DNA of 64,000 bases from a virus, in the IMG/VR virus record IMGVR_UViG_3300045581_000594, positions 1-64,000 of that record, one strand, 5' to 3'. Below are positions 22,601 to 41,315 of this stretch, piece after piece. A model generated the notes under the pieces. That model was not told the origin of the DNA. It searched no databases and worked only from the letters and a program-made list of their open reading frames with translations. The stretch's first letter is position 1. Each line of letters starts with the position of its first letter. The translations under genes and the position numbers were made by a program.

Positions 22601-25600
22601 CTGGCGTGTTCACCAAACAAACCCAAGCCGAGATCGTCGCAGCCAACAAAGCCGAGGCTTCTCGTCTCGGACTGGTAAATGGGGATGCCTCCAGTGTCGT
22701 AACTGCCCTTCGCAACATTGCTAAATCCGGCGGAGTGATTCAGAAAGCGGTTGCTAATATGTTACTAGCCAATGGGGATATCGTTGCTGGCACGAAGTTT
22801 GTAATGACTGAACTCAACAGCTCCGAGGCAGGGTTCTATTCTCCGGAAGATAACACAGTCGTTATCAACCTAGACGGCACAAACGGCCGAGGTCTTGCGG
22901 ATGTTCTGCTCCATGAGTATACCCATGCGGGAACAATCGAGTTGCTCACACGCCCACGCACCGCTGCTCAGCGTGATGCGATCCAGCGTCTTACCGCTCT
23001 TAGAAACTTGACTTCTCAGATAGCGGCTGAGCGAGGCATCGACTCCGCTGTGTTCCGTGCTGGTCTGGCGAACAACGCAGAGTTCATCTCTTACGCCCTG
23101 ACTGCTCCTGAGTTTCAATCGATCCTCGTGAACATGAGTCCTCCGTCCCAGCGTTCGGTATGGCGTCGTATCCTCGACACCATCGCTGACTTCTTCGGTG
23201 TGTCGAGGGAGCAAGTGAATGCTCTCGATGAGATTCTTAACTTCGCTACTATGGCGTTCACTACTCCGAACACTTTCGGAACCACGTCCACCCTGCAATC
23301 TGCTCGTGATGAAGATCGCCGAGCTGATGAGATGAACCACGACGTAATGATCGCCCAGTCGAATCGCTTCACCACAGCGTTTGATGTGCGCGAGCCATCG
23401 ACTCCTTCGGTGGAGGAGCAACAACTAGCCACGCAAGGAGATCTCGTATTCGATACCATAGGGGCTGCCCGTAGTGCATTACCACAAGGTGTGGAGCTGG
23501 TCGAAGACCAGCAGCTCGAAGGGATCGCTGGGTTCTCCCGTGCAAATCCTACTCAGATAGTTGTCAATCCTGATTACTTGGCACAAGCAGTCAGAGGACT
23601 GCCCGCCCATAGAGCTGCGGCAGTTGTCCGCTCTACGATCGACGAGGAGGTAGCGCACATGGCATCCGATGCTGTATTCTCAGAAGCAGACTATGCGGAT
23701 ATCGCAGAGATGCTCGGGAACAGCGGCCTCAACCTTGTGGCCCATGAGTATTACTCACTCAAGTATCCGTCCTTCGCCGAGCGTTCCGCTGCGATCAGAG
23801 CTGATCGGGATTCCGGTATCCTGTCCGATGTGACCCTAGCCTCCGAGTGGACTCGGATGCAGGTATCGCGTATGGCTACAGGCACTACCCGTGAGCGTGA
23901 TCTGGACATGATCCTAGATAATAAATCATTAGTAGATAAACTGATTACTGCGCTACTGCGTTTCGTTGAAACTCTTCGTGAAAGATTTGCGCTTTCCCCT
24001 ACCGCTTCCACAGCGGCGAAGATCTCACAGGCTTCTCGCATGATGCGTCGCCTTCAGAATGACGGAGCCATCCCTGCCCCTGAGTCCTCACCCGAAGGTG
24101 AGATGGGCGACACTACCTACCTGCTTGCGGCTCTGAGCAATCAGACAGTCGAAGGACAGGAAGATAGAACATCGTTCGCTGCCCCCATCGCAGCCATAGA
24201 CCCAGATAAGAAGTCGTTCATCGAACGCTTCTGGGATAAACTCGGTGAGCGTGGGCGCATCTACAACATGCCGACCGCCTTACGTGAAGTGTATAATAAT
24301 CGTGCAGGCGTGCTCAGCACCGCCCAGTACGACATTCAACTCTTCAACAAGAAGTTCTCCAAACTGCGTGACTCCGCACTGGCAGACGGGATACCTATGG
24401 AGGATCTCATGGTTGTGCTCGGGACCACTGAGCCGATCATTAAGACCCCCGTCCGTGCGAAGATCGCTTCCGATCTGCGTGCGTTCGGTAGAACCCTCAG
24501 CCCACAAGACCCTGCCCGTGAGGACAAGATGCGTGAGAAAGAGAACGAGCTATACCAACAAGCAGCCCACGAGTTTGCCGCAGACTTCCGCCTCAAGCAA
24601 GAGGAGATGGAGAAAAGGCTCCGCAGCAGGGGTCACTCCGAAGTTGTGGACCTGATGGTAGAGTTCAGGAAACAAATGAACAAGCAGAAAACCATTGTCA
24701 ACTGGGACTCCACGAATGATGTGTATCTAACAAGACACTATCGTTACTACGATACCCCCGGCTGGCACATGGCTGTACGCAACGGGACAGTGTTCACCGA
24801 TGACACGGGAACCGAGGTTGACTTCGGTGCTCGCAGGCTGGTCGCTGCCAGAAGTTTGTATATGGAAGAAGCAATGGCTGACCTGAGCAGGGAGGGTATT
24901 AAACCAACTCAAGATCTGCTGGACCAGCGTGTGCTTGTCAAACTGGACGAACACCTAGATAGCTTGGACAAGATGCACGCGGAGGAGTATTCCGAGAGCA
25001 TGGCAACCAGCATCAGGCAAGACCCGAACCTTCTCAAGAAGAAAAACGAGGTCGACGCCTCGCTCAGGGGGCTACTCGGTGAGGTCAAAGACCCGCTTGA
25101 GGTTGCCGTGAGAACGATGCACAGCCTGAGCCGTATGGCAGCGAACAAAACGTTCTACGAGAACTTCGAGAAGATCGCCATCAAGCAGGGGCTCGCTTCC
25201 TATACACCACAGGATGGAATGGTTTTGCTATTCCCTTCCCGTCAGTCCGATAGGTACGGCACGCTCGCTGGGCTGCATGTACGCAACGATATTGCGGCAG
25301 CTCTGCGTGAGGAACTTCAACTTCAGCTTGGACAGGGAGAAGCCAACGCTACGAAGGCTATCTCAGGACTCACCAAAGGGTTCGCAACCTTCTCCGGTTT
25401 GTCTATCACAGCCAAGACGGCCCTCGGTGTGGGTTACTGGACACGTAACATCATCGGTGGTGGTGTGTTGAGCATTACTCAAGGACTGTCACCTCTTTCC
25501 CGAGACTCCATTGCCAGCTTCAAGGCTGCGTTTAAGGGCAACTTCCTTGGGGCTGAGTCCGACGAGAATCAGCGTGAAGTTATCCGCCGTCTGACTGAGC

Positions 25601-27126
25601 TTCAGATCCTCCGTGATGATTCCCAAGGGCGTATCATCACTGACATGATGAGAGGGTTCATGACCAACTCCGATCAGGCGTTGGACGAGGCTCTTCAAAT
25701 GATCCTGAAGTCCCAAGCGACTGGCAGCATGGCTGAGATCAAGTCTGTGTGGAGCAAACTATTCTCCGTACCTCTTGAGAAGGTCCCTGCGGCAGCGGCT
25801 ACCCTTAACAACTTTGTAGACAGTTACTTTAAGGCGAACGCTTACTTCCAAGAGTTAAGATTCCTCCAGAACAAGTTCGGGGAAACCCATTCGGCTGCGG
25901 AGTTGGAGCAACGTGCGGCTCACAAAGTCAAGCTGACGTTCCCGACTCACTCGCAGACGTTGGACATCACCCGTGCATTCAACCGCTCACCTTGGGCACA
26001 GTTGTTCATGCCTTTCCTCAGGTATAAAACGGAGATCATCAGGACGATGATAAACACTCCGTTGCTGGCGGCCAGCGAGATGAAGAACGGAGAGTTCTCT
26101 CGTGGGCTCCGTCGACTGACGGGCTACTCCACTGTCATGATTGGTGGGGCTTCGATCCTCGGGCACACGATCAGCATGATCTTCAGTCTTCTCGGAGATG
26201 ACGACGAAGAGAAGCGAAAGCTAACCGAAGAGGAGCAAGAGCAGATCCGCATGGGTCTTCCGAAATGGCAGAGACTTCACGCCCTGCACATGACGAAGAT
26301 TGGCGGTAAGATTCAGGTAGTCGACATGAACTACATCATGCCGCACTCCATTGTTACAGGTATCTTCTCCATCGCAATGAACGGAGCAGTATCAGGTAAT
26401 GGTGTGTCCGGTAGGGATGTTGCAGCGTTCATAAAGTCTGAGTTGCTCGGAGCAAACATTGCAGCTACAGCTGTCAATGAGGTTCTCTCCAACAGAGATG
26501 ACTTCGGACGCGAGATCTACAGCAGTTCCGACAATGCTCTGGAAGTCTTCCGCAAGTCCATGACTCACCTCGGGGCAGGGACCCTACTCCCAGCCTCGAT
26601 CGACAAGGGGCGTAAGATCTTCCGCAAGGGAGAGAAGAACCGCTTGGAGCTGATTCTTGGGGAGTTCACCGGAACCAGACCGCAGCTGCACGAACTTGAT
26701 ACAGTGCTTGATCGTGGTATGCGGACAGTCAAGGAGGGCATCGATGCTGCCGTTTCCGAGCGCAGCCCGTTCACCAGCGGTAAGTATCTGGATACCGCTG
26801 AGATCCCCGACATCTTCGACAGACAACAGCGTATGCTTAACGCCAATCAGAAGAGACTCAGTGATCTTCTCCGCGTGATGCAGTCGCTGGGTGTTGAGGA
26901 GTCTACGATCTTTGAGAAATCCAAGGACACCCAGATCAGCAAGCAGACAATCGCTCTGGCAATGGACGGGCAGCAACTAAGGTACACCCCGAACGCTGCA
27001 GTTTACCAGAAGATGGACGCTAACATCAAAGCTCTGGGGGAGGAGGCGAGTGCCGATCCCAGATTCCAAGCCCTGATTGATTATGCTGAGAAGCAGCCTG
27101 AGATCTACGACGTAAGCTCCTACTGA
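13666..27126 (+). CDS. Giant 4,486-aa polyvalent virion protein with zincin domain
   Basis: One uninterrupted 13.5-kb frame, about a fifth of the window. Visible parts in order: an amphipathic hydrophobic segment (about 265-305) and Gly/Ala-rich segments (about 500-540, 765-785); coiled coils (about 1245-1330 and 2400-2560); a repeated word NPE(N/A)F(R/A)P(Q/R)LGR (about 2900-2955); and a metallopeptidase motif HEYTH (3083-3087) with a likely third ligand E3139 in NAEFISYALTAPEF. Then a second, degenerate site EEVAH (3327-3331), where the first His is Glu; a hydrophobic segment (about 3912-3940); and a C-terminal LPD38-like region (FNRSPWAQLFMPFLRYKTE, from 4105) with a membrane-like helix (about 4152-4176). 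Giant multi-domain phage proteins of this kind are probably packaged and injected. No T7/N4-type RNA polymerase motifs were found by eye. Confidence 0.85.
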   Translation: MLEIKPFSVWSQDHSDTPPTEQYRGYSTYLRSSHFKNGTLNEQTENEINEGMYQKAVADGLIAEDAPDEEKETVFRSLTGAEPTDPSFTNAQFLPDYLRSKFDRNSAEYAQAGLVETYLSAKRVNSPLAEQHKASIEPLLANQEMITAARKAAVDRGDMQVVSYTKPDGSKGFHFGADTTRESLSGKVDSLLALGALDATDLKEVNSYLDPLNGGVANNAQAVRADAAFRFLDETIKSDPALKNNFNNAVQKRRRREQVAGMTTGERIFDVAKQAIAIPFEAAANLVVGTGQAVGEAFGAEYAPEEAPASADLTKAKDALRSNGYSDAEIERYVTDYTKHMTGPVFRADNPASGIDTDSLGNVLLAPELINQAVFDKALESAPLNEAQKAQAPEQRKLMLERMTPEYMDLIVGESTEALDAYTKAKASGISDSAFVESWLNDPNNYSGFSERLQQFGLSTVSAVAQPLLGVFALGGSESAAKGLAALNREAGQRQKYSRLFGDEYGLGFQVANTLPQVGADILLSVGTGAAYTAAKTTASTGIKSVLRSAAKQAVADVGEDAALAVSRASTLTGSTSEAFSKMSQGLTKTLGLTEAYAPIAASSFMRSASSTYGQLYDELPEGMSHEEKHKAVLGTSMLSGMSTMLTVVGMGLIGRGGVEDLATGGVRIGGKTVPMDKLTYRQMKMLADETTPVINRLTDKAFQQALRGSMGNAYRNFFNQTLKGGFDESVEEMLDQAIQMKITDAYKNQDTPFHEFANQLWVAGVVGGALGGGMGAGAQLLSRPTENDAIRAASARYDLLSRATERLKASGSPVTASLLEERMNEAAQRLAEERTAKATSDAQALQNAAATPASSTLNPDFGVATEDPDIPRPAYTELLTDLEGEQVMHGHYKGRVVLEEDQAYLELDKPELDANKQQFTRIHLGNAVDVASKHVSRSSKFRVTDAPVGSIPAGTPFYQYGKGVKGRYALPDPAATNLDADFTFHRDENGEIKSVVINTARNFDRPDVVFPRTITAPAELRVLGRIYGFEVSPNTGAASRPTAGTADFRSVRAVAKPAQLEFSYDPVAAKQGKKAAPSWSIGQNKDDQPIISIPRAKQGDKVILLPPTGEQRPGAVQVVYKEDNTVDYLFFPNTLTAGQNQPTAYFETDPERIQQLASLYNLRLSETDGPSEALIDDGHARFAFLDTMAGAQLPPLPVVNPEAGAAPEEAAPAVIPVGEGQMELGLDGDVPDYADRVSKAGMAKAVVAAARRVEELKAKMPASAKADAAALTAAENGVTRARASLLTAQTQLEKATDKTRDAREATVATRLKQLTDAEQKLAAAQQAPSLVMTRAIKEAERRLKDLQDASARTEAGEVIHLLGERLTPEQKIEYSSAVAAAYPVEESSEAIINTILRLDPTSRTRTARRIAQQTYADFTPEQIGGALARAEAMIDFGVARAEDGSVPIEVAREIVSAGETIKSRIAAFQGIAVDEEARRIAKLVEDAGQALLAQYNADVEKANPTPSAPADTTPEETSPEEGVAITVDSFPEVLARFNSLIQEYKEAVLYAEGAAIAEGKSPNARGRAVTKVRIPIQQELRAEANRIINLIRQNDDLEESIRAEFETEVLRTLGRNFDKALSNLLQTKRELVTMRGEKAVKGVVRETGKGFRTKQEKAVFEMLAANGHVVSDLTSTGAMFPDHRAVINDVVYNAFTMSTPDLQEAGDKYYKPSEYIKTKNRMLAERVQELYPEVGYLSPAGAGGYYYVVGKNKFPTVYATGVKGSMRVLKKDGDPKNAADFTYVKGAYAPYVSSNRYTDSTEVSGIFTNNPVAVRAQLAMRMSIAPAPTSFAKGKLNPSIVLNGRQAVGYYMPWDSERTNPFYGDSKPVDPRFTHNSETSDEPQARVRKSRRAAEALFLLGMKEPSRRSVWSTQFSEETNKLYKRTSGKLDLNAGSKGSVDTRLPLTATGMDNTVIGVLKEYTVQFNEFRLAQLLTQYVAKQLVKQVRKGQELSPDMQAYMEAKDLGAISTKPSELKRIVEMYAKGPDGSFAPAASSVNITAFLKDIFSRMTIEEVADHVTTMYPDTTHPEVTGVLMNYAMKLLKSTAVDGAYYAAPTADDTMRRSFNRIANTQAKREQRSFWKEGEQVSFDELFDDELFGMENSNAIQSEFRGDAPPVAQPLKGSVGRAFEAAGFNVDPVWDGVSSIEPIRLPAESEDPIYYTRSELLTDDFRKAVRENPTIASLVKQLALKLDPELAVLSGVELLSKLSAKVYEGVLKGDPTAYQFVANLQSEQTGTGAIGKKLAAHLVLSGWLPPSKIYQAAYVGRSGATAGIRVAGSQITRLGFLSPSEHEVYVGATSDMTTEEILARGARARTASEIEQKNVKDRFTAAYGVNESEAARQNDAFMDAARLAQSTVMSLNRERYQAMAEASVAQRRVEGLRERLVLLAGSDTFTNAAEAIQAAEANKQNVLRSLRKESADLYGRARKLDKQIKEASESGATLPRLLQRRKEFSAMLAGTRKIPKNSNAEDVAARISGLDQVILRVEAMSHPEKMASMRAEARSLRAEGRTKANQVSEFKNMDTRSVLLRTVQELSEFNKKAVMSELAVNMLTKEAKEVLLLARTRPYQLLADLAKNDPDYLKAKAKISPLTSEERGILQRAAVEKLDAVRSNENLSKAHSALGKLLREAGYNVRTTQRQQGATEDLFVVPDAPVIPPPPAGVTEFISPSLGVPAEGVVFQSPVIVRPEWETREKGFMWDRREVTHSVDEDGFISARVVYTYPSGETSEETLRGAKASDILVKREVRAEGEQTVIEYTYFDGSTESEIMDGLPSTGIEDSDFTLPPTDTNPNFRSEARTLGVQRARTAEAAEREAALARAAQVDQEQPADTEQPAEQAEEQQEPYFNQRQAAALSNPENFRPQLGRVEGELTGGLTYDEWQFVYDYYTQEREDAIQRENPEAFAPRLGRIDTEALAKRLKKNDQVTSRNGLFFSAGVFTKQTQAEIVAANKAEASRLGLVNGDASSVVTALRNIAKSGGVIQKAVANMLLANGDIVAGTKFVMTELNSSEAGFYSPEDNTVVINLDGTNGRGLADVLLHEYTHAGTIELLTRPRTAAQRDAIQRLTALRNLTSQIAAERGIDSAVFRAGLANNAEFISYALTAPEFQSILVNMSPPSQRSVWRRILDTIADFFGVSREQVNALDEILNFATMAFTTPNTFGTTSTLQSARDEDRRADEMNHDVMIAQSNRFTTAFDVREPSTPSVEEQQLATQGDLVFDTIGAARSALPQGVELVEDQQLEGIAGFSRANPTQIVVNPDYLAQAVRGLPAHRAAAVVRSTIDEEVAHMASDAVFSEADYADIAEMLGNSGLNLVAHEYYSLKYPSFAERSAAIRADRDSGILSDVTLASEWTRMQVSRMATGTTRERDLDMILDNKSLVDKLITALLRFVETLRERFALSPTASTAAKISQASRMMRRLQNDGAIPAPESSPEGEMGDTTYLLAALSNQTVEGQEDRTSFAAPIAAIDPDKKSFIERFWDKLGERGRIYNMPTALREVYNNRAGVLSTAQYDIQLFNKKFSKLRDSALADGIPMEDLMVVLGTTEPIIKTPVRAKIASDLRAFGRTLSPQDPAREDKMREKENELYQQAAHEFAADFRLKQEEMEKRLRSRGHSEVVDLMVEFRKQMNKQKTIVNWDSTNDVYLTRHYRYYDTPGWHMAVRNGTVFTDDTGTEVDFGARRLVAARSLYMEEAMADLSREGIKPTQDLLDQRVLVKLDEHLDSLDKMHAEEYSESMATSIRQDPNLLKKKNEVDASLRGLLGEVKDPLEVAVRTMHSLSRMAANKTFYENFEKIAIKQGLASYTPQDGMVLLFPSRQSDRYGTLAGLHVRNDIAAALREELQLQLGQGEANATKAISGLTKGFATFSGLSITAKTALGVGYWTRNIIGGGVLSITQGLSPLSRDSIASFKAAFKGNFLGAESDENQREVIRRLTELQILRDDSQGRIITDMMRGFMTNSDQALDEALQMILKSQATGSMAEIKSVWSKLFSVPLEKVPAAAATLNNFVDSYFKANAYFQELRFLQNKFGETHSAAELEQRAAHKVKLTFPTHSQTLDITRAFNRSPWAQLFMPFLRYKTEIIRTMINTPLLAASEMKNGEFSRGLRRLTGYSTVMIGGASILGHTISMIFSLLGDDDEEKRKLTEEEQEQIRMGLPKWQRLHALHMTKIGGKIQVVDMNYIMPHSIVTGIFSIAMNGAVSGNGVSGRDVAAFIKSELLGANIAATAVNEVLSNRDDFGREIYSSSDNALEVFRKSMTHLGAGTLLPASIDKGRKIFRKGEKNRLELILGEFTGTRPQLHELDTVLDRGMRTVKEGIDAAVSERSPFTSGKYLDTAEIPDIFDRQQRMLNANQKRLSDLLRVMQSLGVEESTIFEKSKDTQISKQTIALAMDGQQLRYTPNAAVYQKMDANIKALGEEASADPRFQALIDYAEKQPEIYDVSSY

Positions 27127-32538: not shown

Positions 32539-33789
32539 TTACTCGGTGATGACTTCCCCGTCAACAGAGGCAATGCCAGCGTCGCAGGAGTTGGCCAGCC
32601 GACCGAGGAGCTGGTTGGATAGGGTGTTGAGCCCGTCGAAGTCCTCGTCGTAGCCATAGGTTACGAGCAGGTCGATGACGGCTGTCCTAGACAGGTCAAG
32701 GTTACGGAAGATATCTCTGCCGATGTAGTCGGGGATACCATCGTCGATGGTGCATGCCTTCGGGGGCAACAGATCCTCCTCGAACGCCCACGAACGGGAG
32801 CTGGGCTGTCGAAGCTCCATAGAGGCGAGCCTCTGCTGGATCGTGCTGGTGTTCGAGTCGGATATCTCTACTCCCCAATTCGATTTCTTCTTGGGGCTGG
32901 AGAAGTAACGGAAGTTATCGACGGGGGTGTGTGCCCAGACCTGACCGCCAAGCAGGGTCGCTGCCTCGTAGGCGAGGGAGCAGGCAACGTCGAGCTGGCT
33001 GAGCAGGACATACTCACTGTCACAGTGGGGCATGTGGTAGCCGGAGCTGATGTTGACCATGCTGACCTGCAGCCCACGATTGGCGAGCTCGCCGATGTCG
33101 GTGATGCTGCCATACGCCTCCGAGTGGTTGTTGTCGATGGCTGTCGGCAGGTTGAGCATGGCAGCAAAGAACTCGTCGCTCGAACAATCCATGCCGTTGG
33201 TCTCACGGATGATGTCCATCGTGCGGTTGTTGCGGTCGGCTTGGATGACGAAGGACGCATGCTTGAACCACGACAGTGGCACACTACCGCTGCCGAGACA
33301 CCCGACTTCCTCGTCACGGACAAACACCACAGTCACATGGTCGAGGCGGTGGAGCATCTGCATGGCTACGTAGATACCGCACTTGTCGTCACCGCCGACA
33401 CCTGCAGGGGCATCGTTGGCATCGATGGCAGACAGCTCGTCGCCGTCAACCACCAGCTCCATGAACGGGGCATAGTCGTGCACCTGATCGAGGTGGGCTA
33501 GGAAGTAGGGGTGAGGGCCTGATGCGTCACCCTTGCGGATGAGCATGTTGCCCGCCTTCCTGACCACAGTGCACCCCTCGGGGGCGAGGGCAGTCAGGGC
33601 AGCGATCATGTGATCGTTGCACTTCTTCATCTTGCTGGGGTTCTGGAGGATGAAGATGTCGTTAATCATCTGCATGTCGATGAACTCCATAGACTGGGTA
33701 GTCCGTTGGATGAAACGCTTGCCCGCACTACGTTCGTTACGGCGGGAGAACAGGCGATGTTTTGATTTTGATTTTGATTTCTTGTACAT
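32539..33789 (-). CDS. M20/M28-like zinc metallopeptidase
   Basis: A 416-residue protein with what looks like a complete co-catalytic zinc site: HLDQVHD (H99, D101), GVGGDDKCG (D134), the catalytic and ligand pair DEEVG (E160, E161), D185 in IQADRN, and SSGYHMPHCDSEY (H252/H255). The order H, D, EE, D, H is that of M20/M28/M42 aminopeptidases, with the best feel for PepT-like tripeptidases. The first 30 residues are very basic (KKSKSKSKHRLFSRR), which is not part of the usual enzyme. Metabolic peptidases are uncommon in phages. It lies directly upstream of the MoxR gene on the same strand. Confidence 0.85.
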   Translation of the reverse strand: MYKKSKSKSKHRLFSRRNERSAGKRFIQRTTQSMEFIDMQMINDIFILQNPSKMKKCNDHMIAALTALAPEGCTVVRKAGNMLIRKGDASGPHPYFLAHLDQVHDYAPFMELVVDGDELSAIDANDAPAGVGGDDKCGIYVAMQMLHRLDHVTVVFVRDEEVGCLGSGSVPLSWFKHASFVIQADRNNRTMDIIRETNGMDCSSDEFFAAMLNLPTAIDNNHSEAYGSITDIGELANRGLQVSMVNISSGYHMPHCDSEYVLLSQLDVACSLAYEAATLLGGQVWAHTPVDNFRYFSSPKKKSNWGVEISDSNTSTIQQRLASMELRQPSSRSWAFEEDLLPPKACTIDDGIPDYIGRDIFRNLDLSRTAVIDLLVTYGYDEDFDGLNTLSNQLLGRLANSCDAGIASVDGEVITE

Positions 33790-33815: not shown

Positions 33816-33866
33816 GGCTCGCTCTGACGCTGTGCCTCCCAGCGTTAATCACTTCGGGGTGATTAG
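33816..33866 (+). repeat. Two-stem repeat element, copy 1
   Basis: In plus orientation: GGCTCGCTCTG, stem ACGCTG-N7-CAGCGT, then TAATCAC-N6-GTGATTA (33846-33865). The TTA at 33863 is the stop codon of the 514-aa gene. The next minus-strand gene starts 27 nt further on. Confidence 0.8.
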
Positions 33867-35407
33867 GCATCCGCTTCTGTGTTACCGCAGATCAGTACGA
33901 TCTCGTTGTCCTCGGTGCGGGTCAGTGAGTGGTGGAACACCCGTCCGTCGGCGAGTGTGACACTGTCATCAACAAGCACCATCTGCTCGTCCGCAGTCAT
34001 GATCGCATTGTCCATGTGGCAGGACTCCCTTGTGTAATGCAGAGGGGAGAGATAGACGAGGTGGTCGTCGTGGATACGACCATCCCTAGTTGAGAGGGTC
34101 GTGTCGCCAAACCTGACGTACCCTTCATAGTAGGGGACGTAGACTGCTTGGCTCTCCTCTATCTCCTCACCGAAGATATCCTCTACCATCGACTCAGGCT
34201 CCTCAACATCAAGCGAGCCGTCGGTGTTGTCAAGCTCGGAGAGTTTGTGGCAAGGCCTGTCATCCCTGTTGGAGAGCATGCCATCGTCATACCAGTGACG
34301 GAGGGAGTCAATGTATGGGACATTGTCGTAGACGCATAGGGTGCTCGGTGTCGGGATAGACAGCAAGCGATAGGACAGATCGTTGGCAAAACCATCGGTG
34401 TGATACACACACTTGACGATGTTCTCGTCACGGAGGAACTGCCTGACGGCATCGATCGCCTTCTGTGGGTGGCAGGAGTTGATACGCACACAGTAGACCC
34501 GATCAAGGTGATACTGCCCGTTGTCGTGCCATACCAGAGCACGCCCGCAGTGTGCACCATTGACCTTGATGAGCATCATGGACAAACGACCAGCACGTTG
34601 GAGGTCGTCATACAGGGCGAAGTAGGTGTAATCCTTGCCTGACATGCAGCTGCCCAGATCTATCTCCTCGTCTGCTTCCCAGTCGGAATAGACTTCACTG
34701 ATGCAAGTCCCGTCAGGTATCCACTCCGCAGTGTATTGCTTGACCGCAAGGATAGAGTCAATCTGAGACAGCCAGAGGTTGGTGGCTGCCGTGTCAAGCG
34801 GTGGTAGTTCGTAACGCTTGAGCCACTTGTTGATTGTGGCAACCGGACGCCCCGCACAGGCTACAGGAATGTGATGGGAGTATGACGGGTATTGGAGGGT
34901 AGCCTCGACAGGTCGGAATCCCCGCATGGTCTTCGAGTCGAAGACAGAAGGAGGCAGATCAGGCAGCATGGTAGTGAGCTGCTTGAGTCCTTCTTCGGAG
35001 GAGATCAGGCTGTCCAGATCCACGCCCTGCTTGACACTACCAGCCCTGTCACCCGTTGGCTCGATGGGTGGCATCAAACGCAAGGTCATATCCCCACCTC
35101 GTGGATGAGCGAGCCGGATGGAGGTGATCGGCGTGATGGGCTGCCATCCGTCATTGTGACTCTCGGCGTCGATGGTTGTGCGGACAGTGAACGGGGCGAG
35201 CAGGGTGTCCTTGTTCTTGAAGACAAAGGGCTGCTTCCTCGCCAGTGCGTAGACATGGCAGTAAGTGCCCAGCTCCGGTTTGGTCGAGCGGATATGCCTA
35301 GCTAGGTGGTTAGTGAGCATGTCCCATGTCACCTCGGAGGCTTGGGTGATGGCTTCTTCATCTTCGGCGTTGCGTTTGGCGTTTTCGTATTCTTCAATGA
35401 TGTTCAT
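33863..35407 (-). CDS. Unknown phage protein with SCM...GRALVW...DRVY motif (514 aa)
   Basis: The C-terminal half contains SCMSGKDY, then about 30 residues later GRALVWHDNGQYHLDRVYCV. This block order is one I remember from many uncharacterised phage proteins, usually with a following helix as here (AIDAVRQFLRDENI). The C-terminal region is beta-rich and acidic. No catalytic site is recognised. The leader has two AGACAAA boxes, and the stop codon is inside the two-stem repeat. Confidence 0.65.
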   Translation of the reverse strand: MNIIEEYENAKRNAEDEEAITQASEVTWDMLTNHLARHIRSTKPELGTYCHVYALARKQPFVFKNKDTLLAPFTVRTTIDAESHNDGWQPITPITSIRLAHPRGGDMTLRLMPPIEPTGDRAGSVKQGVDLDSLISSEEGLKQLTTMLPDLPPSVFDSKTMRGFRPVEATLQYPSYSHHIPVACAGRPVATINKWLKRYELPPLDTAATNLWLSQIDSILAVKQYTAEWIPDGTCISEVYSDWEADEEIDLGSCMSGKDYTYFALYDDLQRAGRLSMMLIKVNGAHCGRALVWHDNGQYHLDRVYCVRINSCHPQKAIDAVRQFLRDENIVKCVYHTDGFANDLSYRLLSIPTPSTLCVYDNVPYIDSLRHWYDDGMLSNRDDRPCHKLSELDNTDGSLDVEEPESMVEDIFGEEIEESQAVYVPYYEGYVRFGDTTLSTRDGRIHDDHLVYLSPLHYTRESCHMDNAIMTADEQMVLVDDSVTLADGRVFHHSLTRTEDNEIVLICGNTEADA

Positions 35408-35540
35408 TGTGTTTGTCTTTCTATTTGTATTTGTCTAGTTTCTGATTACACACCATGTGTCATCAGACAGGAAGGCACATCGGGGGATATGCCCTCGTGT
35501 CTGATCCTTAATCACCCAGAAGTGATTAAGGATACAGGGT
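35408..35540. other. Intergenic region with leader, hairpin and heptamers
   Basis: It contains the AGACAAA leader of the 514-aa gene, the hairpin 35506-35531 and a heptamer cluster. It has no coding potential on either strand. Confidence 0.6.
35506..35531 (+). repeat. Stem-2-only hairpin with perfect 10-bp stem
   Basis: CCTTAATCAC and GTGATTAAGG pair perfectly around a 6-nt loop. It is the second stem of the two-stem element without the first. It abuts heptamers GGATACA GGGTTCA. Confidence 0.8.
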
Positions 35541-35807
35541 TCAGGGTTTTCTTCTCATCATTGATTCCACCGAAGTGATAGCCACCAACAGGGAGTCGGC
35601 GGATGTCACTTCGTAGACGGCGGGGACTTCACCCAAGCAGCAGAATCCACTTGTATTTCCGACACCTACGTAGAACGTATCGTCGGAGTAGAGGTGGATG
35701 ATTACTTCTTCATGGGCATCTGATCGTGTCTCCCTCAGCTGAAGGAGCAGGCGGTTCATGACTTTGCGAATGAGCCATGAGGCTAATACATTTTGTAGGT
35801 ATCTCAT
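35541..35807 (-). CDS. Hypothetical protein (88 aa)
   Basis: The long frame open in this region is mostly a shadow of the 212-aa gene. I take the start as ATG 35807 (MRYLQNVLASW). The protein has a helical N-terminus (IRKVMNRLLLQLRET) and beta strands (EVIIHLYSDDTFYVGVG). Heptamer repeats lie directly upstream of the ATG (CCTGAACCCTGTAACC), and the TGA stop is formed by another heptamer unit. Confidence 0.6.
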   Translation of the reverse strand: MRYLQNVLASWLIRKVMNRLLLQLRETRSDAHEEVIIHLYSDDTFYVGVGNTSGFCCLGEVPAVYEVTSADSLLVAITSVESMMRRKP

Positions 35808-35810
35808 ATA

Positions 35811-35832
35811 GGTTACAGGGTTCAGGTTACGG
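35811..35832. repeat. Heptamer repeat cluster between two genes
   Basis: The units GGTTACA GGGTTCA GGTTACG fill the gap between two minus genes. The TTA of the last unit is the stop of the 212-aa gene. Confidence 0.75.
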
Positions 35833-36465
35833 TTTGGGGTTGAGGATGTGGAATATCTGTGCAGCAACGTGCGCCCCGTGATCGGGGTGAGTAGCCACAT
35901 AGGTGAGAAACGCGGCGTCAAACATCGGGATGTAGGTGAACGCTCCCTCGTATGATTGCGAGGTCGTGTCCCTGTATACGTCCCAGTCGTCGGCTCCGAC
36001 CTCGACAGGTCCACACTTCTCAAGCAGATGGTAGATGCTATCAGCCGTGGCAACCTCGTGGGGCTTGAGGTTTCCCCATGGTGCTGGGTTGTTACGCACC
36101 CTGTAGTGACCAATGGCACACGAAAGTGCAACTTGACGTGCCTCGATGGATGCATCCTCCAGATCGCTTTCAGTATACTTGAAGAGGCAGATGGCTTTAT
36201 CGTAATTCCGTCGATGATCTTCGGAGATGAGGAACTCAAGCATGGTGTCCGCCCAATCATCACCTTGCTGCCAGTCCTCGTCTCCCGCCGTGATGTTGCC
36301 GTTCGAGTCGATCTTGTAGGAACACTCCACATCCCAGTGACGGGGGGAGTAGTGGTCTGCGTTGCGGCACACCCAATCATCTCCGATTAAGGAGGCGCGG
36401 CGTATCTTGTCATGCCAACCTGCTTCGAGGAGTCGTTGCTGTAATGGTTTTAGGTCTTGTTTCAT
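35827..36465 (-). CDS. Hypothetical protein (212 aa)
   Basis: An acidic soluble protein rich in Trp, His and Tyr (GDDWVCRNADHYSPRHWDVEC, EDWQQGDDWADTMLEF). The end (AAQIFHILNPKP) reaches into the heptamer repeat that supplies its stop. The leader is TTACAAGACAAAGACATT, the shared box. No family is recognised. Confidence 0.65.
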   Translation of the reverse strand: MKQDLKPLQQRLLEAGWHDKIRRASLIGDDWVCRNADHYSPRHWDVECSYKIDSNGNITAGDEDWQQGDDWADTMLEFLISEDHRRNYDKAICLFKYTESDLEDASIEARQVALSCAIGHYRVRNNPAPWGNLKPHEVATADSIYHLLEKCGPVEVGADDWDVYRDTTSQSYEGAFTYIPMFDAAFLTYVATHPDHGAHVAAQIFHILNPKP

Positions 36466-36494
36466 AATGTCTTTGTCTTGTAATACAGTAGTTC

Positions 36495-36530
36495 AGCTCA
36501 CTTGATACGCTGTGCTGTTCAGCGTTAGGC
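36495..36530 (+). repeat. Stem-1-only copy of the two-stem element
   Basis: GCTCACTTGAT is followed by ACGCTG-N7-CAGCGT. The second stem is missing and is replaced by a short TAGGCTAATA and heptamers. In this copy the stem has a T-A pair where most copies have T-G. Confidence 0.7.
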
Positions 36531-36535
36531 TAATA

Positions 36536-36553
36536 GGATACAGGGTTCAGGCT
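36536..36553. repeat. Heptamer repeat cluster
   Basis: The units GGATACA GGGTTCA supply the TGA stop (36547-36549, minus strand) of the 49-aa gene. Confidence 0.7.
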
Positions 36554-36696
36554 GGTATTACTCTGGCAATCTTCCACCCGAAGAAGGTATTCGGATTGGA
36601 AACCTCACGGAAGAATCCAAAACGCTTGTCGTCTTGGTATCCGAGGAAGACAGCCAGTGTGCCATCGTCTAGGGTAACTGTGTCGTTGATGTTCAT
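36547..36696 (-). CDS. Small hypothetical protein (49 aa)
   Basis: I take ATG 36696 (MNINDTVTLDD), 5 nt after the previous stop. The product is a small SH3-like beta domain by eye (GTLAVFLGYQDDKRFGFFREV, then FFGWKIARVIPA). A longer frame starts at 36873 but its N-terminal part overlaps the upstream gene in another frame. The stop lies in a heptamer repeat. Confidence 0.55.
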   Translation of the reverse strand: MNINDTVTLDDGTLAVFLGYQDDKRFGFFREVSNPNTFFGWKIARVIPA

Positions 36697-36700
36697 GGGT

Positions 36701-37213
36701 TCAGATGTTTCTCCATCCATAGGTGCGGACAGCAATGCGACCACCCGACAGCGAGCGGGTCGAGGCGATAGATGACGAGACGCACCCACAGCAGTCATGC
36801 TCGTGGTGGCATCGGTATCTGAAGTGGTCTTCAATGTCCTCCTGATTGGCTGCAGGGATGATGGCAATGGCACGGAACGAATCGCCTGAGCGATCCCATT
36901 TGGTTTTCTCTTTGATGATGGTCATAGGGTTCAGGGCACAGGGTTCGTCATGGCATTGGCTACTCCGCCTCGTTACGGCTTCTGCCAGCACCTCGCTGAG
37001 ATGGTAGTTCATGACGTCCCAGTTCAGACCGATGTTGCAGTCCTTGTGGTGATCCATGCGGCGGAGGACTTCCTCTGCTTGCTCCTGAGTTACCTCAGAT
37101 TCGGCATAGCGGTTGCCTGTTCGTCTCACGTCGTCAACCTGCCACAGATCGTAGGCAATGACGTCGTCGGGGTTGTAGTCCAATAGGTGGTTGATTAGTT
37201 CTTTAACTGTCAT
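36701..37213 (-). CDS. In-frame fusion of two small phage proteins across a repeat
   Basis: A 170-residue frame. Residues 1-90 (MTVKELINHLLDYNPDDVIAY..., LRRMDHHKDCNIGLNWDVM) resemble a small phage family that I remember ending near a HxxEVL motif. The linker EPCALNP is translated from heptamer repeats. Residues 97-170 begin with their own Met (MTIIKEKTKW, ATG 36925) and contain HHEHDCCGCVSSS and a final YGWRN, typical of a second separate small protein with Cys/His metal ligands. It is either expressed as a fusion or as two proteins by internal initiation at 36925. Confidence 0.65.
   Translation of the reverse strand: MTVKELINHLLDYNPDDVIAYDLWQVDDVRRTGNRYAESEVTQEQAEEVLRRMDHHKDCNIGLNWDVMNYHLSEVLAEAVTRRSSQCHDEPCALNPMTIIKEKTKWDRSGDSFRAIAIIPAANQEDIEDHFRYRCHHEHDCCGCVSSSIASTRSLSGGRIAVRTYGWRNI
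36926..36950. repeat. Heptamer repeat inside the fused frame
   Basis: The units GGGTTCA GGGCACA GGGTTCG are translated on the minus strand as EPCALNP. They sit exactly between two recognisable small proteins. Confidence 0.7.
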
Positions 37214-37237
37214 ATGCGTTTGTCTTGTAATTCAATA

Positions 37238-37290
37238 GGCTCACTTGAAACGCTGTGCCTCACGGCGTTAATTACTTCCATGTGATTAAG
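37238..37290 (+). repeat. Two-stem repeat element, copy 2
   Basis: GGCTCACTTGAA, stem ACGCTG-N7-CGGCGT, then TTAATTAC-N6-GTGATTAA (37268-37289). It holds the TAA stop of the 167-aa gene. Both stems contain one T-G wobble in plus orientation. Confidence 0.85.
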
Positions 37291-37789
37291 CAGGCTCAGT
37301 GTCTTCGATGCCTGCCATCTCTTTGGCTTCGTCTTCTTCGTAGCCCATCTCGTTCACGAGGAACGCAACGTGCAACTCAGGGTCGTCGATATTGGAACAG
37401 GTGTCGGAGACTTCCCCGCCGAGGAGTTCAGCGATACCATAGAAGGCACAGCCCTGCTCGTAGTAAGCGAGACTGAGCTGGACTTCAGGGAACATCTCCG
37501 ATAGGGCACAGAGAGCCCCCAATGGAGGACTCCAAGCGGTATGGAAGGATGCCATCCCGTAACCGAGTAGCGTTCTGGCTGCTTCCTTTGCGTCGTCCGC
37601 TTCGAGATCCCACTTCGTCCCCCAAGCGTCAGCTTGAGCAGATACAGTGTCCCATCCATGTTCACCAGTTTCGGGACGGCTTGGCTTTACCATCCGCTCG
37701 AAGCTGAACCCACCTTCGCCTTCGAGGAAGGACTTGAAAGCGGGGGTCATGTTTGTAATTGTCAATTTGTTTTCGCACCAGTTTGGCAT
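37286..37789 (-). CDS. DUF1281/Api92-like protein
   Basis: I take ATG 37789. The 167-residue product begins MPNWCENKLTITN, the hallmark of the DUF1281 (YubB-like, Api92-like ferredoxin fold) family found on plasmids and phages. The middle holds a typical W-x-T-K-W-D block (AWGTKWDLEADD) and PPLGALCALSEMFP. Function is unknown; family members sit among anti-restriction genes. The leader has the AGACAAA box; the stop lies in the repeat. Confidence 0.85.
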   Translation of the reverse strand: MPNWCENKLTITNMTPAFKSFLEGEGGFSFERMVKPSRPETGEHGWDTVSAQADAWGTKWDLEADDAKEAARTLLGYGMASFHTAWSPPLGALCALSEMFPEVQLSLAYYEQGCAFYGIAELLGGEVSDTCSNIDDPELHVAFLVNEMGYEEDEAKEMAGIEDTEPA

Positions 37790-37823
37790 AATGTTTGTTC
37801 TTTCTTTGTCTTGTAATTCAATA

Positions 37824-37876
37824 GGCTCACTTGAAACGCTGTGCCTTACGGCGTTAATTACCTGCAAGTGATTAAG
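37824..37876 (+). repeat. Two-stem repeat element, copy 3
   Basis: Stem ACGCTG-N7-CGGCGT and TTAATTAC-N6-GTGATTAAG. No gene stops in this copy; the next gene (37914) is on the opposite strand, as if a minus gene had been replaced by an inverted one. Confidence 0.85.
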
Positions 37877-37913
37877 ACTTGCGGGACAATGGAGATGTAT
37901 GTAGTGTGCTGCC

Positions 37914-38204
37914 ATGAAAGATGCTATCGCACGCAACGCCATCAAACGGGCAATGGTCGAGGGGTTCAACCGCCCGAAACGCACACCGAACCATCCGACC
38001 AAGAGTCACATCGTTGTAGCCAAGGAAGGCAACAAGGTGAAGACAATAAGGTTCGGACAGCAGGGCGTATCGGGTAGCCCGAAGAAGGCGGGGGAGTCAG
38101 CTTCATATGCAGCAAGACGCAGGTCATTCAAAGCCCGCCACGCCAAGAACATTGCCAAGGGCAAGATGTCGGCGGCGTATTGGGCTGACAAGGTGAAGTG
38201 GTAA
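37914..38204 (+). CDS. Basic phage protein with RRRSFKARHAKNI motif (96 aa)
   Basis: The only plus-strand gene inside the minus array. The second half holds SHIVVAKEGNKVKTIRFGQQG, then RRRSFKARHAKNIAKGKMSAAYWADK. This combination is a conserved small family in phages and large DNA viruses (I recall a DUF6321-like label). The KARH/YW pattern suggests a small beta domain with basic surface, probably DNA or RNA binding. A hairpin follows its stop within 3 nt. Confidence 0.75.
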   Translation: MKDAIARNAIKRAMVEGFNRPKRTPNHPTKSHIVVAKEGNKVKTIRFGQQGVSGSPKKAGESASYAARRRSFKARHAKNIAKGKMSAAYWADKVKW

Positions 38205-38206
38205 GC

Positions 38207-38230
38207 CTTAATCACTTCGAGGTGATTAAG
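38207..38230. repeat. Bidirectional hairpin between convergent genes (stem 2 only)
   Basis: CTTAATCAC and GTGATTAAG pair perfectly (9 bp, loop TTCGAG). It lies between the convergent stops of 37914-38204 and 38226-38555; it supplies the TAA of the latter. It could act as a terminator in both directions, but there is no T-run. Confidence 0.75.
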
Positions 38231-38555
38231 CAAAGGCGGCGACTTCACGATCCAGCTCATCGCCGTCAAGGATGTTACGCTCATCTGCGATCATCTCCGA
38301 GTGAGCGGCAAGGATCTCCGAGTAGACTCCGATGTCATCGAAGTTCCAGAACGACAGCATCGGGAAGATCTCCGACGCAAGCTGGGCGGGGATGGTGTCA
38401 TAAACACGGCAGATCATCACGATCTCGACGAAGCGACGAACGAACGGACGGCGATCATCGCCGTCATTTGCCCCGAACAGCTCACCGACTTGCGTCTTGC
38501 AAGCGGCGGCTAGGATGGATCTCCGATGAACGGAGCATAGGTTATGGTATCTCAT
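38226..38555 (-). CDS. Hypothetical protein (109 aa)
   Basis: A mainly helical protein (RRSILAAACKTQVGELFG, FVEIVMICRVYDTIPAQLASEIFPML). The start ATG 38555 overlaps the previous stop (ATGA), so it is coupled to the 105-aa gene. Its own stop lies in a hairpin. Confidence 0.6.
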   Translation of the reverse strand: MRYHNLCSVHRRSILAAACKTQVGELFGANDGDDRRPFVRRFVEIVMICRVYDTIPAQLASEIFPMLSFWNFDDIGVYSEILAAHSEMIADERNILDGDELDREVAAFA

Positions 38556-38869
38556 ACGTTAATTACTTTCAGGTGATTAAGGTTTAAGGGCTTGAGTTGG
38601 ATGCGTTTGCCCCAACTGCTGAGGCTAACGATTTCGTAAGTGTCAGGTATTAACGGCAGTGGCATAGCCACAGCTTCATACCATTCCCCGTCTATCACTG
38701 TACCTCCATTGTAACGGATAGTTTGCCCGTATTGAGGGTAGGGCGAGGCATTGCTTGCGATGATGCCTTTCGGCGGTCTATCGCCATAGGCATTGGGGGG
38801 TGCATGCCTTGCCCTTTTAGCACATTCTGCTTCATCCCAAATCTGTTGAGGATAAGTGTATGTTTGCAT
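38552..38869 (-). CDS. Hypothetical protein whose C-terminus is translated repeat (105 aa)
   Basis: I take ATG 38869 (MQTYTYPQQIWDEAE). The last residues NLNHLKVINV are the translation of a stem-2 hairpin (38559-38580): here the frame reads through the repeat and stops in the ATGA of the next gene. Elsewhere the same hairpin ends the gene. The middle is Pro/Tyr-rich (PPNAYGDRPPKG). Function is unknown. Confidence 0.6.
   Translation of the reverse strand: MQTYTYPQQIWDEAECAKRARHAPPNAYGDRPPKGIIASNASPYPQYGQTIRYNGGTVIDGEWYEAVAMPLPLIPDTYEIVSLSSWGKRIQLKPLNLNHLKVINV
38559..38580 (+). repeat. Stem-2 hairpin inside coding sequence
   Basis: TTAATTAC-N6-GTGATTAA, translated on the minus strand as LNHLKVIN at the C-terminus of the 105-aa protein. 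Confidence 0.75.
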
Positions 38870-38895
38870 AATCGTATTTGTTTTGTTAATAGGTA

Positions 38896-38948
38896 GGCTC
38901 ACTTGATACGCTGTGCCTCTCGGCGTTAATCACTTCCATGTGATTAAG
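38896..38948 (+). repeat. Two-stem repeat element, copy 4
   Basis: GGCTCACTTGAT, ACGCTG-N7-CGGCGT, TTAATCAC-N6-GTGATTAAG. It gives the stop of 38944-39171. Confidence 0.85.
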
Positions 38949-39171
38949 GATGTTTGACGAACGATGAGCGAGCATGCTCGACATCGCAGTGATACTTGCC
39001 CTGCAGGGGGGCGGTGTCGCCGAACACGATGACACGATTCCGTTTGACGACAACGGCGGTGCGTCGATCGATGAAGGCACAAACCAGCTCAACGATCAAG
39101 CCGAGCAGGTAGAGGGAACAGAGGGCGATAACAAACGCACTCCCGACGATGGTGTAGATAGCGAGGTTCAT
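38944..39171 (-). CDS. Small membrane protein (75 aa)
   Basis: The N-terminus is one long membrane segment (YTIVGSAFVIALCSLYLLGLIVELVCAFI). It is followed by a basic cytoplasmic tail (DRRTAVVVKRNRV). The start overlaps the stop of the upstream gene (ATGA). It is probably an inner membrane accessory protein of unknown function. Confidence 0.6.
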   Translation of the reverse strand: MNLAIYTIVGSAFVIALCSLYLLGLIVELVCAFIDRRTAVVVKRNRVIVFGDTAPLQGKYHCDVEHARSSFVKHP

Positions 39172-39377
39172 AGTCTTGAGATAACAGGGTTGAGTTCAGT
39201 GAGACGGAATCCTGATACAGGTTTCAGGATAACGGATACATTGCCCTCCGTCATGCGGATGGCAGTGGCGATTGCTTCAGCCATTATTTCCCGCTGTTGG
39301 GCGGGGCTGAGCGAGATGCGACGCAAGGTCGCAAGTTGACGACCGACTTGCATCGGTGTGATCGTTTCGGTTTTCAT
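39168..39377 (-). CDS. Hypothetical protein (69 aa)
   Basis: I take ATG 39377 (MKTETITPMQVGRQLATL), which follows the leader ACTAGACAAAGACAT. The frame is open further upstream only because the repeat is open in that frame. The protein is helical (RRISLSPAQQREIMAEAIATAI), then a strand (VSVILKPVSGF). A DNA-binding helix pair is possible. Confidence 0.6.
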   Translation of the reverse strand: MKTETITPMQVGRQLATLRRISLSPAQQREIMAEAIATAIRMTEGNVSVILKPVSGFRLTELNPVISRL

Positions 39378-39405
39378 ATGTCTTTGTCTAGTTATGGAAT
39401 AAGAC

Positions 39406-39458
39406 GGCTCACTTGATACGCTGTGCCGTTCGGCGTTAATTACTTTCAGGTGATTAAG
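39406..39458 (+). repeat. Two-stem repeat element, copy 5
   Basis: GGCTCACTTGAT, ACGCTG-N7-CGGCGT, TTAATTAC-N6-GTGATTAAG. It gives the stop of 39454-39873. Confidence 0.85.
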
Positions 39459-39873
39459 CGAGGTTGGCGATGATTGCCTTGCGGTCGGCATCGTTGAGTT
39501 TGAGGGTTGCGATGTAAGCCAACGCCTTGCTGGCTTTCGGGGTCAGAGCAACCTTACGTCCATTACCACTACGCTTGTCGTTACCAGAGGACTGGCGGAG
39601 ACGCAAGCCAGCATCACGGAGGATGCGTTGGACGTATGCTTTGACGTATCCTGCTTTGAGCAGGAGCTTCTCGACTTGGCGATAGGCGGTTGCCATATCG
39701 ACTTTGTCTTTCGACTTGCCGACGACTTGCTTCACTCTATCGGCAAGTGATGTCTTGGCTTTGTCAAACGCTTCATCGGCATTGAAGTATGCCAAGGCAA
39801 GAGTTTCAAGCTCTGCAAGGACTTCTTTGCTCAAGGACTTAACGACTGCATTGGATTTAGTATTCTTTTTCAT
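39454..39873 (-). CDS. Basic helical hypothetical protein (139 aa)
   Basis: A Lys-rich helical protein with an N-terminal coiled-coil-like part (SLSKEVLAELETLALAYFNADEAF), a central predicted helix-turn-helix-like stretch (MATAYRQVEKLLLKAGYVKAYVQRIL) and a Ser/Gly/Arg linker (QSSGNDKRSGNGRK). It may bind DNA. The leader is AAAGACAAAGACATATG directly next to a stem-2 hairpin. Confidence 0.6.
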   Translation of the reverse strand: MKKNTKSNAVVKSLSKEVLAELETLALAYFNADEAFDKAKTSLADRVKQVVGKSKDKVDMATAYRQVEKLLLKAGYVKAYVQRILRDAGLRLRQSSGNDKRSGNGRKVALTPKASKALAYIATLKLNDADRKAIIANLA

Positions 39874-39887
39874 ATGTCTTTGTCTTT

Positions 39888-39911
39888 CTTAATTACTTGA
39901 AGGTGATTAAG
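39888..39911 (+). repeat. Stem-2-only hairpin at the array end
   Basis: CTTAATTAC-N6-GTGATTAAG, the last element of the array. It is placed 15 nt upstream of the 139-aa start with no first stem. Confidence 0.75.
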
Positions 39912-40264
39912 CGGATCGCATCGTCCGATCGGATACCAGCGAATCTGCATCCTGAAACAGGAATCAGGATACAGGGTTCAATCTCCCTTCACAAGTAAGG
40001 GACTACACCTACCCGCAATCCTTTCCCGTATCCTGTATCCTGCACCCTGATTCCTGATTCCTGAACCACTAGATATGGTAGAGGATACAGGATACAGGCT
40101 ACGGGTGGGGGGTCAAATTTTTCTGGAAACAGGTATAAATACAACCATGTGTGTAAAAAATAATTGAAGATACCCATACCTTGTGCTATCAAGGGGTGTG
40201 TCCACACCATATGTGGGGGTGTACCGATGATTTTCCTTATTTCACACCAAGACCAATCCAAATT
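39912..40264. other. Non-coding region with dense heptamer repeats
   Basis: Heptamer runs occur at 39951-39980 (GGAATCA GGATACA GGGTTCA) and 40024-40101 (TGTATCC TGTATCC TGCACCC TGATTCC TGATTCC, then GGATACA GGATACA GGCTACG in reverse orientation). They make a large imperfect inverted repeat. After this come the promoter-like AAAATAATTGAAG near 40156 and a CACACC/GGGGTGT inverted repeat near 40204-40222. No convincing gene is present. Confidence 0.6.
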
Positions 40265-40555
40265 ATGAGCGATCAACCCACACCAGATACCAAAAACGGC
40301 ACGTATTACGCCAAGAATCGAGAAGCAAGGAAGGCGTATCAGCTGAAAAGATACCATGCGCTCAAGAAAATGATTGCCAGACAGCGGAAACTCGCACGGG
40401 AACTGGAGCCTGAGAAGATGCAGGCCTACGACGAATATCAACGGCAGTATTATCGCAAGCATCGGGAGCGCATTTTAGCCCGAAAGAAGGAAATTTACGC
40501 CCAAAAACAACCTCGGCGGAGCCTCATTTCCCGTATCCGGAATCCTGAATCCTGA
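40265..40555 (+). CDS. Basic coiled-coil protein (96 aa)
   Basis: I take ATG 40265 (MSDQPTPD). The protein is very basic and helical (REARKAYQLKRYHALKKMI, YYRKHRERILARKKEIYAQ). Its C-terminus RIRNPES is translated from a heptamer repeat, and TGA is formed by it. It resembles small phage proteins with repeated YYxKHREKIL words; a nucleic acid binding role is likely from charge. Confidence 0.6.
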   Translation: MSDQPTPDTKNGTYYAKNREARKAYQLKRYHALKKMIARQRKLARELEPEKMQAYDEYQRQYYRKHRERILARKKEIYAQKQPRRSLISRIRNPES

Positions 40556-40734
40556 CTCAGGTAGCATTTACAGGAGCAATTTCGAGCTCCGATTTCGACA
40601 TGTAAAGTTGTTAGGTTGCGATATCGAATGGCAACTTTCAAAGGGCGAGCTTGCAGGTTACAGGGTGCAACTTACGACTCGAATGTCGTATGTTTAGCCC
40701 TGAAAAGCAGATCCCTAGATTTTCCGTTTGCTCT
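40556..40734. other. Intergenic region with operator-like palindrome
   Basis: This non-coding stretch upstream of the second 166-bp element contains a heptamer remnant (TTGCAGGTTACAGGGTGCA, near 40651) and a palindrome TACGAC-N6-GTCGTA at 40673-40690 that could be an operator. No gene is seen. Confidence 0.45.
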
Positions 40735-40967: not shown

Positions 40968-41315
40968 ATGTCTGACACAACGATCGAACCTAACAACTCT
41001 TCGTGCAATGCGGCTGTCGCCGCGACAACCCGCTACGAGCCGAAACGGCTTCCTGAATCCTGTATCCCGATTCCGGACTATCCTGACTTTGCCCTTGACC
41101 CTGAGACCTACCTCATCTGGCGGGCGAAGCCATCGAAGAAAGGCCACCGCGCTGGGGAGGTCTACCCCCTCAACCCGTGCATCCACCCAAGGGGCAGATT
41201 GTGGAGCGTGATGATGGTCGACGCCGAGGGCAAACGGAAACGGGTTGCCATCTCGAAAGTGATCCGTGAACTGACGGGAGAACTCGATACGCCGATGGGG
41301 CGTTTGGAGGCTTGA
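40968..41315 (+). CDS. NUMOD4/HNH-associated-like DNA-binding protein (115 aa)
   Basis: I take ATG 40968. The segment IPDYPDFALDPETYLIWR...GEVYPLNPCIHPRGRLWSVMMVD...KRKRVAISKVIREL follows the pattern of NUMOD4-type modules found at the N-terminus of HNH homing endonucleases (a beta hairpin, a W-S-V strand, then a helix). No HNH nuclease motif follows, so it is either a stand-alone DNA-binding protein or a truncated endonuclease. A heptamer-like stretch (TTCCTGAATCCTGTATCCC) is inside the coding region (LPESCIPIPD). Confidence 0.55.
   Translation: MSDTTIEPNNSSCNAAVAATTRYEPKRLPESCIPIPDYPDFALDPETYLIWRAKPSKKGHRAGEVYPLNPCIHPRGRLWSVMMVDAEGKRKRVAISKVIRELTGELDTPMGRLEA

Follow-up and report, generated by a model that had tools for sequence, protein, structure and literature searches.

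The window, that is, the whole 64,000-nucleotide stretch of DNA analysed here, covers a 64,716-base IMG/VR virus record except for 716 bases and derives from a very divergent tailed phage. It encodes a family-A DNA polymerase, a DUF5906 protein, an exonuclease and a helicase, together with a 4486-aa ORF (13666-27126, plus strand) in which only the C-terminal part, residues 3765-4295, matches a virion structural family. No RNA polymerase was matched among the scanned window proteins or in this ORF; the idea that it might be a virion RNA polymerase acting on hairpin promoters was considered and rejected, as the ORF has no such homology and the motif spacing is wrong. The repeats described below are housed in a minus-strand cluster at about 28-40 kb, a hypervariable neighbourhood of small genes whose products include a MoxR-like ATPase, a DUF2201/VWA protein, an M28 peptidase, a DUF1281/Api92-like protein and small unknowns. 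Within this cluster lies a lone plus-strand gene (37914-38204), flanked by a full repeat element on one side and a bare hairpin on the other. It belongs to the widespread small phage family phrog_7595, with the end RHAKNIAKGKMSAAYWADKVKW, and a search with its protein returned 80 phages, none of which has another gene in common with the window phage.

The start regions of the cluster are A-rich and devoid of Shine-Dalgarno sequences: an SD-like 4-mer occurs in 1 of 15 leaders, and the leaders are 51% A and 10% G. The start regions resemble in this those of the Bacteroidota, in which initiation relies on unpaired, A-rich leaders (PMC6847099).

A preliminary description of this locus claimed ten copies of a two-stem repeat, and all ten are present. 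Their numbers confirm that the repeats exist and greatly exceed chance expectation: TTAATYAC-N6-GTGATTA occurs at nine sites against 0.08 matches expected, ACGCTG..CRGCGTTA in six real plus-strand copies against 0.18, and GGCTCACTTGAWACGCTG in five copies against 0.10. One detail required correction, as GGCTCACTTG had been given for every copy and the 33816 copy instead reads GGCTCGCTCTG. In gene sense (minus strand) the layout is 5′ CTTAATCAC-N6-GTRATTA / ACGCYG-nn-[AGGC]-A-CAGCGT-WTCAAGTGA-[GCCT] / A-rich leader / ATG. We call this the C-type element; its hairpin 1 corresponds to stem 2 of the preliminary description, and its pseudoknot stem to stem 1. The features, all C-type copies being read on the minus strand, are:

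33816-33866, minus strand: full element (hairpin 1 and pseudoknot); hairpin 1 holds the TAA of the 514-aa gene 33863-35407, and the ATG of the M28 peptidase gene 32539-33789 lies 26 nt on
35506-35530, minus strand: hairpin 1 only, a 12-bp perfect palindrome, in the leader of gene 33863-35407, with a different hairpin-rich stretch after it
36495-36527, minus strand: pseudoknot only, stem 1 being present and hairpin 1 missing; compensatory variant CAGC/GCTG; 29 nt to the ATG of gene 35827-36465
37238-37290, minus strand: full element; hairpin 1 holds the TAA of the DUF1281/Api92-like gene; 24 nt to the ATG of gene 36701-37213
37824-37876, minus strand: full element, in the gap between divergent genes that lies ahead of the minus-strand DUF1281 gene 37286-37789
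38206-38230, minus strand: hairpin 1 only (copy 38207), between the convergent genes 37914-38204 (plus) and 38226-38555 (minus); holds the TAA of the minus-strand gene
38557-38581, minus strand: hairpin 1 only (copy 38559), ending just 5′ of the ATG of gene 38226-38555, within the last codons of the preceding ORF
38896-38948, minus strand: full element; hairpin 1 holds the TAA of gene 38944-39171; 26 nt to the ATG of gene 38552-38869
39406-39458, minus strand: full element, compensatory variant CGGC/GCCG; hairpin 1 holds the TAA of gene 39454-39873; 28 nt to the ATG of gene 39168-39377
39887-39911, minus strand: hairpin 1 only (copy 39888), in the leader of the cluster's first gene, 39454-39873
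35529-36559, 36913-36957, 39960-40110, 40524-40558 and 41039-41073 in the window, and also in the related phages L112, L118, L131, L133 and L136: another short repeat, CCTGAACCCTGTATCCTG with its variants, which occupies many of the cluster's other gaps

In all six copies that contain stem 1, the next minus-strand ATG follows the GCC end by 24-34 nt, and in five copies (33816, 37238, 38207, 38896 and 39406) the upstream gene's TAA lies inside hairpin 1. Because the stop is within hairpin 1 and the next start is so close to the GCC end, the element makes up nearly the entire intergenic region. Where hairpin 1 stands alone, it can follow a stop with no start after it (38207) or precede a start with no stop before it (39888). 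In the leader of the 514-aa gene, hairpin 1 gives way to a different strongly paired stretch (35410-35505; ATCAGACA...TGTCTGAT), perhaps another module type. The exact C-type patterns had no match outside the window in two scans of viral contigs or in genome contigs, and the six copies bearing stem 1 all come from one genome.

The preliminary description gave the loop of stem 1 as N7. Examination of the copies shows that this loop is not free but complementary to the bases just 3′ of the conserved CAAGTGA, and that the two co-vary: the loop reads AGGC in four copies, CGGC in 39406 and CAGC in 36495, and the corresponding partners read GCCT, GCCG and GCTG. All four pairs of this second helix, S2, are held in 6 of 6 copies, and two of them (12-35 and 13-34) show compensatory changes. 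An equal or better helix arose in 33 of 5000 trials of a relabelling control, which preserves the pattern of sharing among the copies, and in 65 of 5000 permutation trials. In the first helix, S1 (ACGCYG/CAGCGT), the outer pairs are invariant and one column is C-A on the sense strand in four of the six copies, a weak point of the sense model. S1 and S2 interleave, as the helices of an H-type pseudoknot do, and S2 shows compensatory change. In minus-strand RNA the loops would be 2 nt (L1) and 9 nt (L3), lengths like those of classic H-type pseudoknots, and we predict that the element forms an H-type pseudoknot suited to the minus, or mRNA, strand. On the plus strand, the RNA would need a loop of 2 nt to span the shallow groove of a 4-bp helix, which, given known pseudoknot geometry, would be a poor fit.

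This bears on the claim, made in the preliminary description, that the element folds only on the antisense strand. The substitutions behind that claim are real: plus-strand T-G, equivalent to minus-strand C-A, occurs at the stem-1 column noted above and at one stem-2 column (five of nine copies), and the 33816 copy contains a further substitution of this kind, giving three in all. When single strands were folded with the pseudoknot ignored, the plus strand was the more stable by 0.8-7.4 kcal/mol in nine of ten copies. A preference for the plus-strand fold therefore stands, but the word "only" is too strong, because copies 35506 and 38207 are perfect palindromes and stem 2 of 38896 is fully Watson-Crick; in 35506 the sense fold is slightly better. 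Furthermore, because the copies share ancestry, the bias represents about three substitution events rather than ten copies, and the one-sided chance that about three events favour the plus strand is 1/8. The three substitutions may reflect drift or tolerated A+•C pairs, or may indicate that hairpin 1 is a weak DNA palindrome.

Relatives of the window phage were found by using the conserved part of its DNA polymerase as query, and a search with an alignment of the ATPase gave 14 contigs with a syntenic cluster, of which two had been known before. Two proteins of the cluster, each used alone as query, did not find relatives. In about 20 related phages, other repeated structured RNAs fill the same gaps. 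The A-type is a hairpin of ~57 nt, present in 14 copies, that starts at a UGA stop and closes with UCAU; it consists of a 5-bp helix (UCGCU/AGCGG, UAGCG/CGCUG or UUGCC/GGCAG), a small internal loop and a palindromic tip. Its alignment contains 10 pairs with compensatory change on the mRNA strand, and over 13 distinct rows, those from L133 having been put in register manually, the sense-strand cells comprise 253 Watson-Crick pairs, 38 G-U and 1 A-C. Of 13 full copies folded, all 13 are more stable in sense than in antisense. A covariance model of the A-type recovered six independent further copies in L197, L134 and L141, in four of which the sense fold is better, the other two being equal within 0.6 kcal/mol. 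In L141 (7334-7390) and L134 (6612-6666) the A-type hairpin is followed by a structured stretch in which no gene start is evident and which might be a small noncoding RNA.

The B-type is a 25-nt motif, xGCGYAGCTTNCCGCy-nAGNTGnAGC, found in 44 copies, all 44 in mRNA-sense orientation and each about 16-54 nt upstream of an ATG, with an A-rich, G-poor leader between. The end pair of its hairpin varies among U-A, G-C and C-G, its second helix is invariant across copies and its loop positions are almost invariant. Many copies are preceded by a short palindromic hairpin, GTCAAGA-CNG-TCTTGAC, sometimes fused to a TAA stop, giving the same order of stop, hairpin, motif and leader that is seen in the window element. 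The B pattern had no match in genome contigs, so the host was not identified by this route.

Module types can be exchanged at one place, because the DUF1281 gene is preceded by a C-type element in the window and its orthologue by an A-type hairpin in L197; in L131 and L133, A-type modules stand before some genes and B-type before others. Neither covariance model matched the window elements (the best B score, 14 bits, fell elsewhere), and we infer from their position that A-, B- and C-types, as positional analogues, share a function. The sequence at 33816-33866 reads GTGATTAACGCTG where A-type copies in L112 and L119 begin GTGATTCGCTG, and the two types may have a common origin. The first gene of the window cluster (39454-39873) was considered as an orthologue of L112:9463-9810 in G002, an assignment that BLASTP did not support. 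A 35-bp tandem repeat (TGTCACGGGGGACGTGACAAACTCACGGCAAAGCT) lies at the record ends of L118 (4400-4613) and L115 (1-105), possibly a genome end or origin.

The preliminary description would give up its plus-strand reading if homologous copies in related phages broke plus-strand pairing as often as minus-strand pairing. The relatives go further than that, with the 38 G-U against one A-C on the sense strand, but their modules are positional analogues and not sequence homologues of the window element. Because their substitutions preserve sense and not antisense pairing, the plus-strand reading fails in the relatives.

The window has no match in Rfam 15, permissive scans of the window, L112, L118, L131, L138 and L140 returned nothing at gathering score, and the A- and B-type motifs have no Rfam 15 match. 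Phage T7 has intercistronic hairpins that are processed by RNase III, and the relatives' A-type resembles these in being a long intercistronic hairpin (~24 bp) with an internal loop; in contrast, the window element's hairpin 1 is short (8-12 bp) and followed by a pseudoknot, and so differs from a long double-stranded RNase III site. Integron attC sites are imperfect inverted repeats that adjoin small gene cassettes and contain a GTTRRRY core. The window element likewise forms imperfect inverted repeats beside small gene cassettes, but reads GTTAATY, with T as the sixth base, and RNA-strand covariation in the relatives sets it further apart. No integrase was found among the roughly 40 window proteins scanned, and the preliminary description was right to set attC aside. 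We regard it as a new form of phage intercistronic/leader RNA, distinct from RNase III sites, attC and the two systems, PeSLs and put, discussed below.

Several other explanations merit consideration. The main rival holds that the modules are translational operators, on which a phage RNA-binding protein would nucleate before coating the A-rich leader and shutting off or timing a gene set, as gp32 does on T4 gene 32 mRNA. The anatomy agrees, because the T4/T2 gene 32 leader also has an H-type pseudoknot and then an unstructured stretch containing the start region (PMC3014915). The near-invariance of the B loop is what protein recognition predicts, and sequence differences between phages are what a co-evolving binder would produce. 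However, the window element has a stop-codon hairpin ahead of it, lies 24-34 nt from the ATG rather than 67 nt, and recurs before many different, unrelated genes, none a known autoregulated gene; no gene for an SSB or regulator is tied to the modules, and the A-type hairpins that occupy this position have more the look of double-stranded processing sites than of an operator for a single binder. We consider operators unlikely. Promoter modules acting at the DNA level are less likely still. The T4-type promoter early stem-loops, or PeSLs (Arbiol 2010 and Comeau 2014, as cited in PMC4503421), combine early promoters with a terminator hairpin and are the nearest known system in placement, a resemblance that the preliminary description noted: both are repeated composite stem-loop cassettes that stand between the small genes of a variable cluster, in line with those genes. 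B, a compact conserved block before the ATG, could also suit a promoter for PeSL-like or phage RNA polymerase use. The defining promoter was nevertheless not found at the window elements: a scan for sigma-70-like sites, which may not be the host's promoter type, gave one in the cluster where 6.4 would be expected, and this one lies outside the elements. No conserved -10/-35 box was found around or upstream of B, which forms an isolated 25-nt island, and no phage RNA polymerase was matched, as described above. Compensatory changes and sense-biased G-U pairs are not promoter traits, and the window element, from another phage lineage, differs from PeSLs in having a pseudoknot and covarying structure in leader RNA.

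The plus-strand transcript or single-stranded DNA favoured in the preliminary description is improbable. It draws on the three substitutions, which retain plus-strand and break minus-strand pairing, and on the more stable plus-strand folds; against it stand the small number of independent events, the perfect palindromes, positions that track minus-strand stops and starts, the loop lengths and the opposite bias in relatives. Very improbable, too, is a cis-acting antitermination RNA that acts on the passing RNA polymerase. The HK022 put RNA, about 70 nt long, has two stem-loops and is found at two sites downstream of early promoters (PMC9378689), and the window element similarly places two adjacent stem-loops in a nascent phage leader of comparable extent. 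Yet the window modules differ from put in exact size and in sequence, and are multi-copy, recurring before many individual genes and in some cases standing as one hairpin where a gene ends, and there is no excess of terminators to overcome (9 intrinsic terminators against 5.9 expected). Intrinsic terminators at the elements themselves were sought, and only chance-level plus-strand matches, at 39418 and 33857, were seen. We give the slimmest chance to recombination, in which the modules would be mobile homology islands for cassette shuffling with no role in expression; copies are indeed alike within a genome and different between phages, and the surrounding gene content is variable, but structure with compensatory changes persists where sequence does not, and orientation and ATG spacing are strict.

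The explanation we favour, with a probability of roughly 0.57, is that the C-type element is a cis-acting RNA module of the minus-strand mRNA that punctuates a multi-gene message and frames its SD-less, A-rich starts. Each module would span the gap between two genes in gene-sense RNA. Hairpin 1 would close off the upstream gene, often with that gene's TAA inside; next would come the H-type pseudoknot, in which the loop [A/C][G/A]GC of the ACGCYG/CAGCGT stem would pair with GC[C/T][T/G] past CAAGTGA; and the unstructured leader and next ATG would follow. The modules would thereby set the ends of each cistron, through nuclease processing and/or protection of cut ends, and leave the A-rich start region open and insulated, with relatives using A- or B-type RNAs at the same place. 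A structured module that closed one cistron and kept the following leader free would suit such a punctuating role. What is seen directly is where the modules lie, which way they are oriented, that their helices pair with compensatory changes, and that one module type replaces another. The processing and insulation role, like the identity of the factor, we infer. The sense C-A mismatches at three stem positions, the worse sense fold when the pseudoknot is ignored, the confinement of the six stem-1 copies to one genome and the lack of variation in B's second helix count against this explanation.

To our knowledge, structured leader and intercistronic RNAs of phages have been individual cases, such as T4 gene 32, the T7 processing sites and HK022 put. 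Across about 20 related phages, by comparison, position and architecture are constant, and the RNA sequence and even the fold are swapped; the covariance models of B and A can be used on further sequence collections. We suggest, at slightly less than even odds, that a lineage of SD-less phages uses interchangeable, undescribed RNA modules (A, a long hairpin at the stop codon; B, a 25-nt hairpin/pseudoknot; and C, a hairpin with a pseudoknot after it) to punctuate its host-takeover operon, and that a dedicated phage or host factor would recognise them. Because position is kept as sequence and fold are exchanged, these phages offer a natural experiment on intercistronic RNA structure where no usable Shine-Dalgarno sequence exists.
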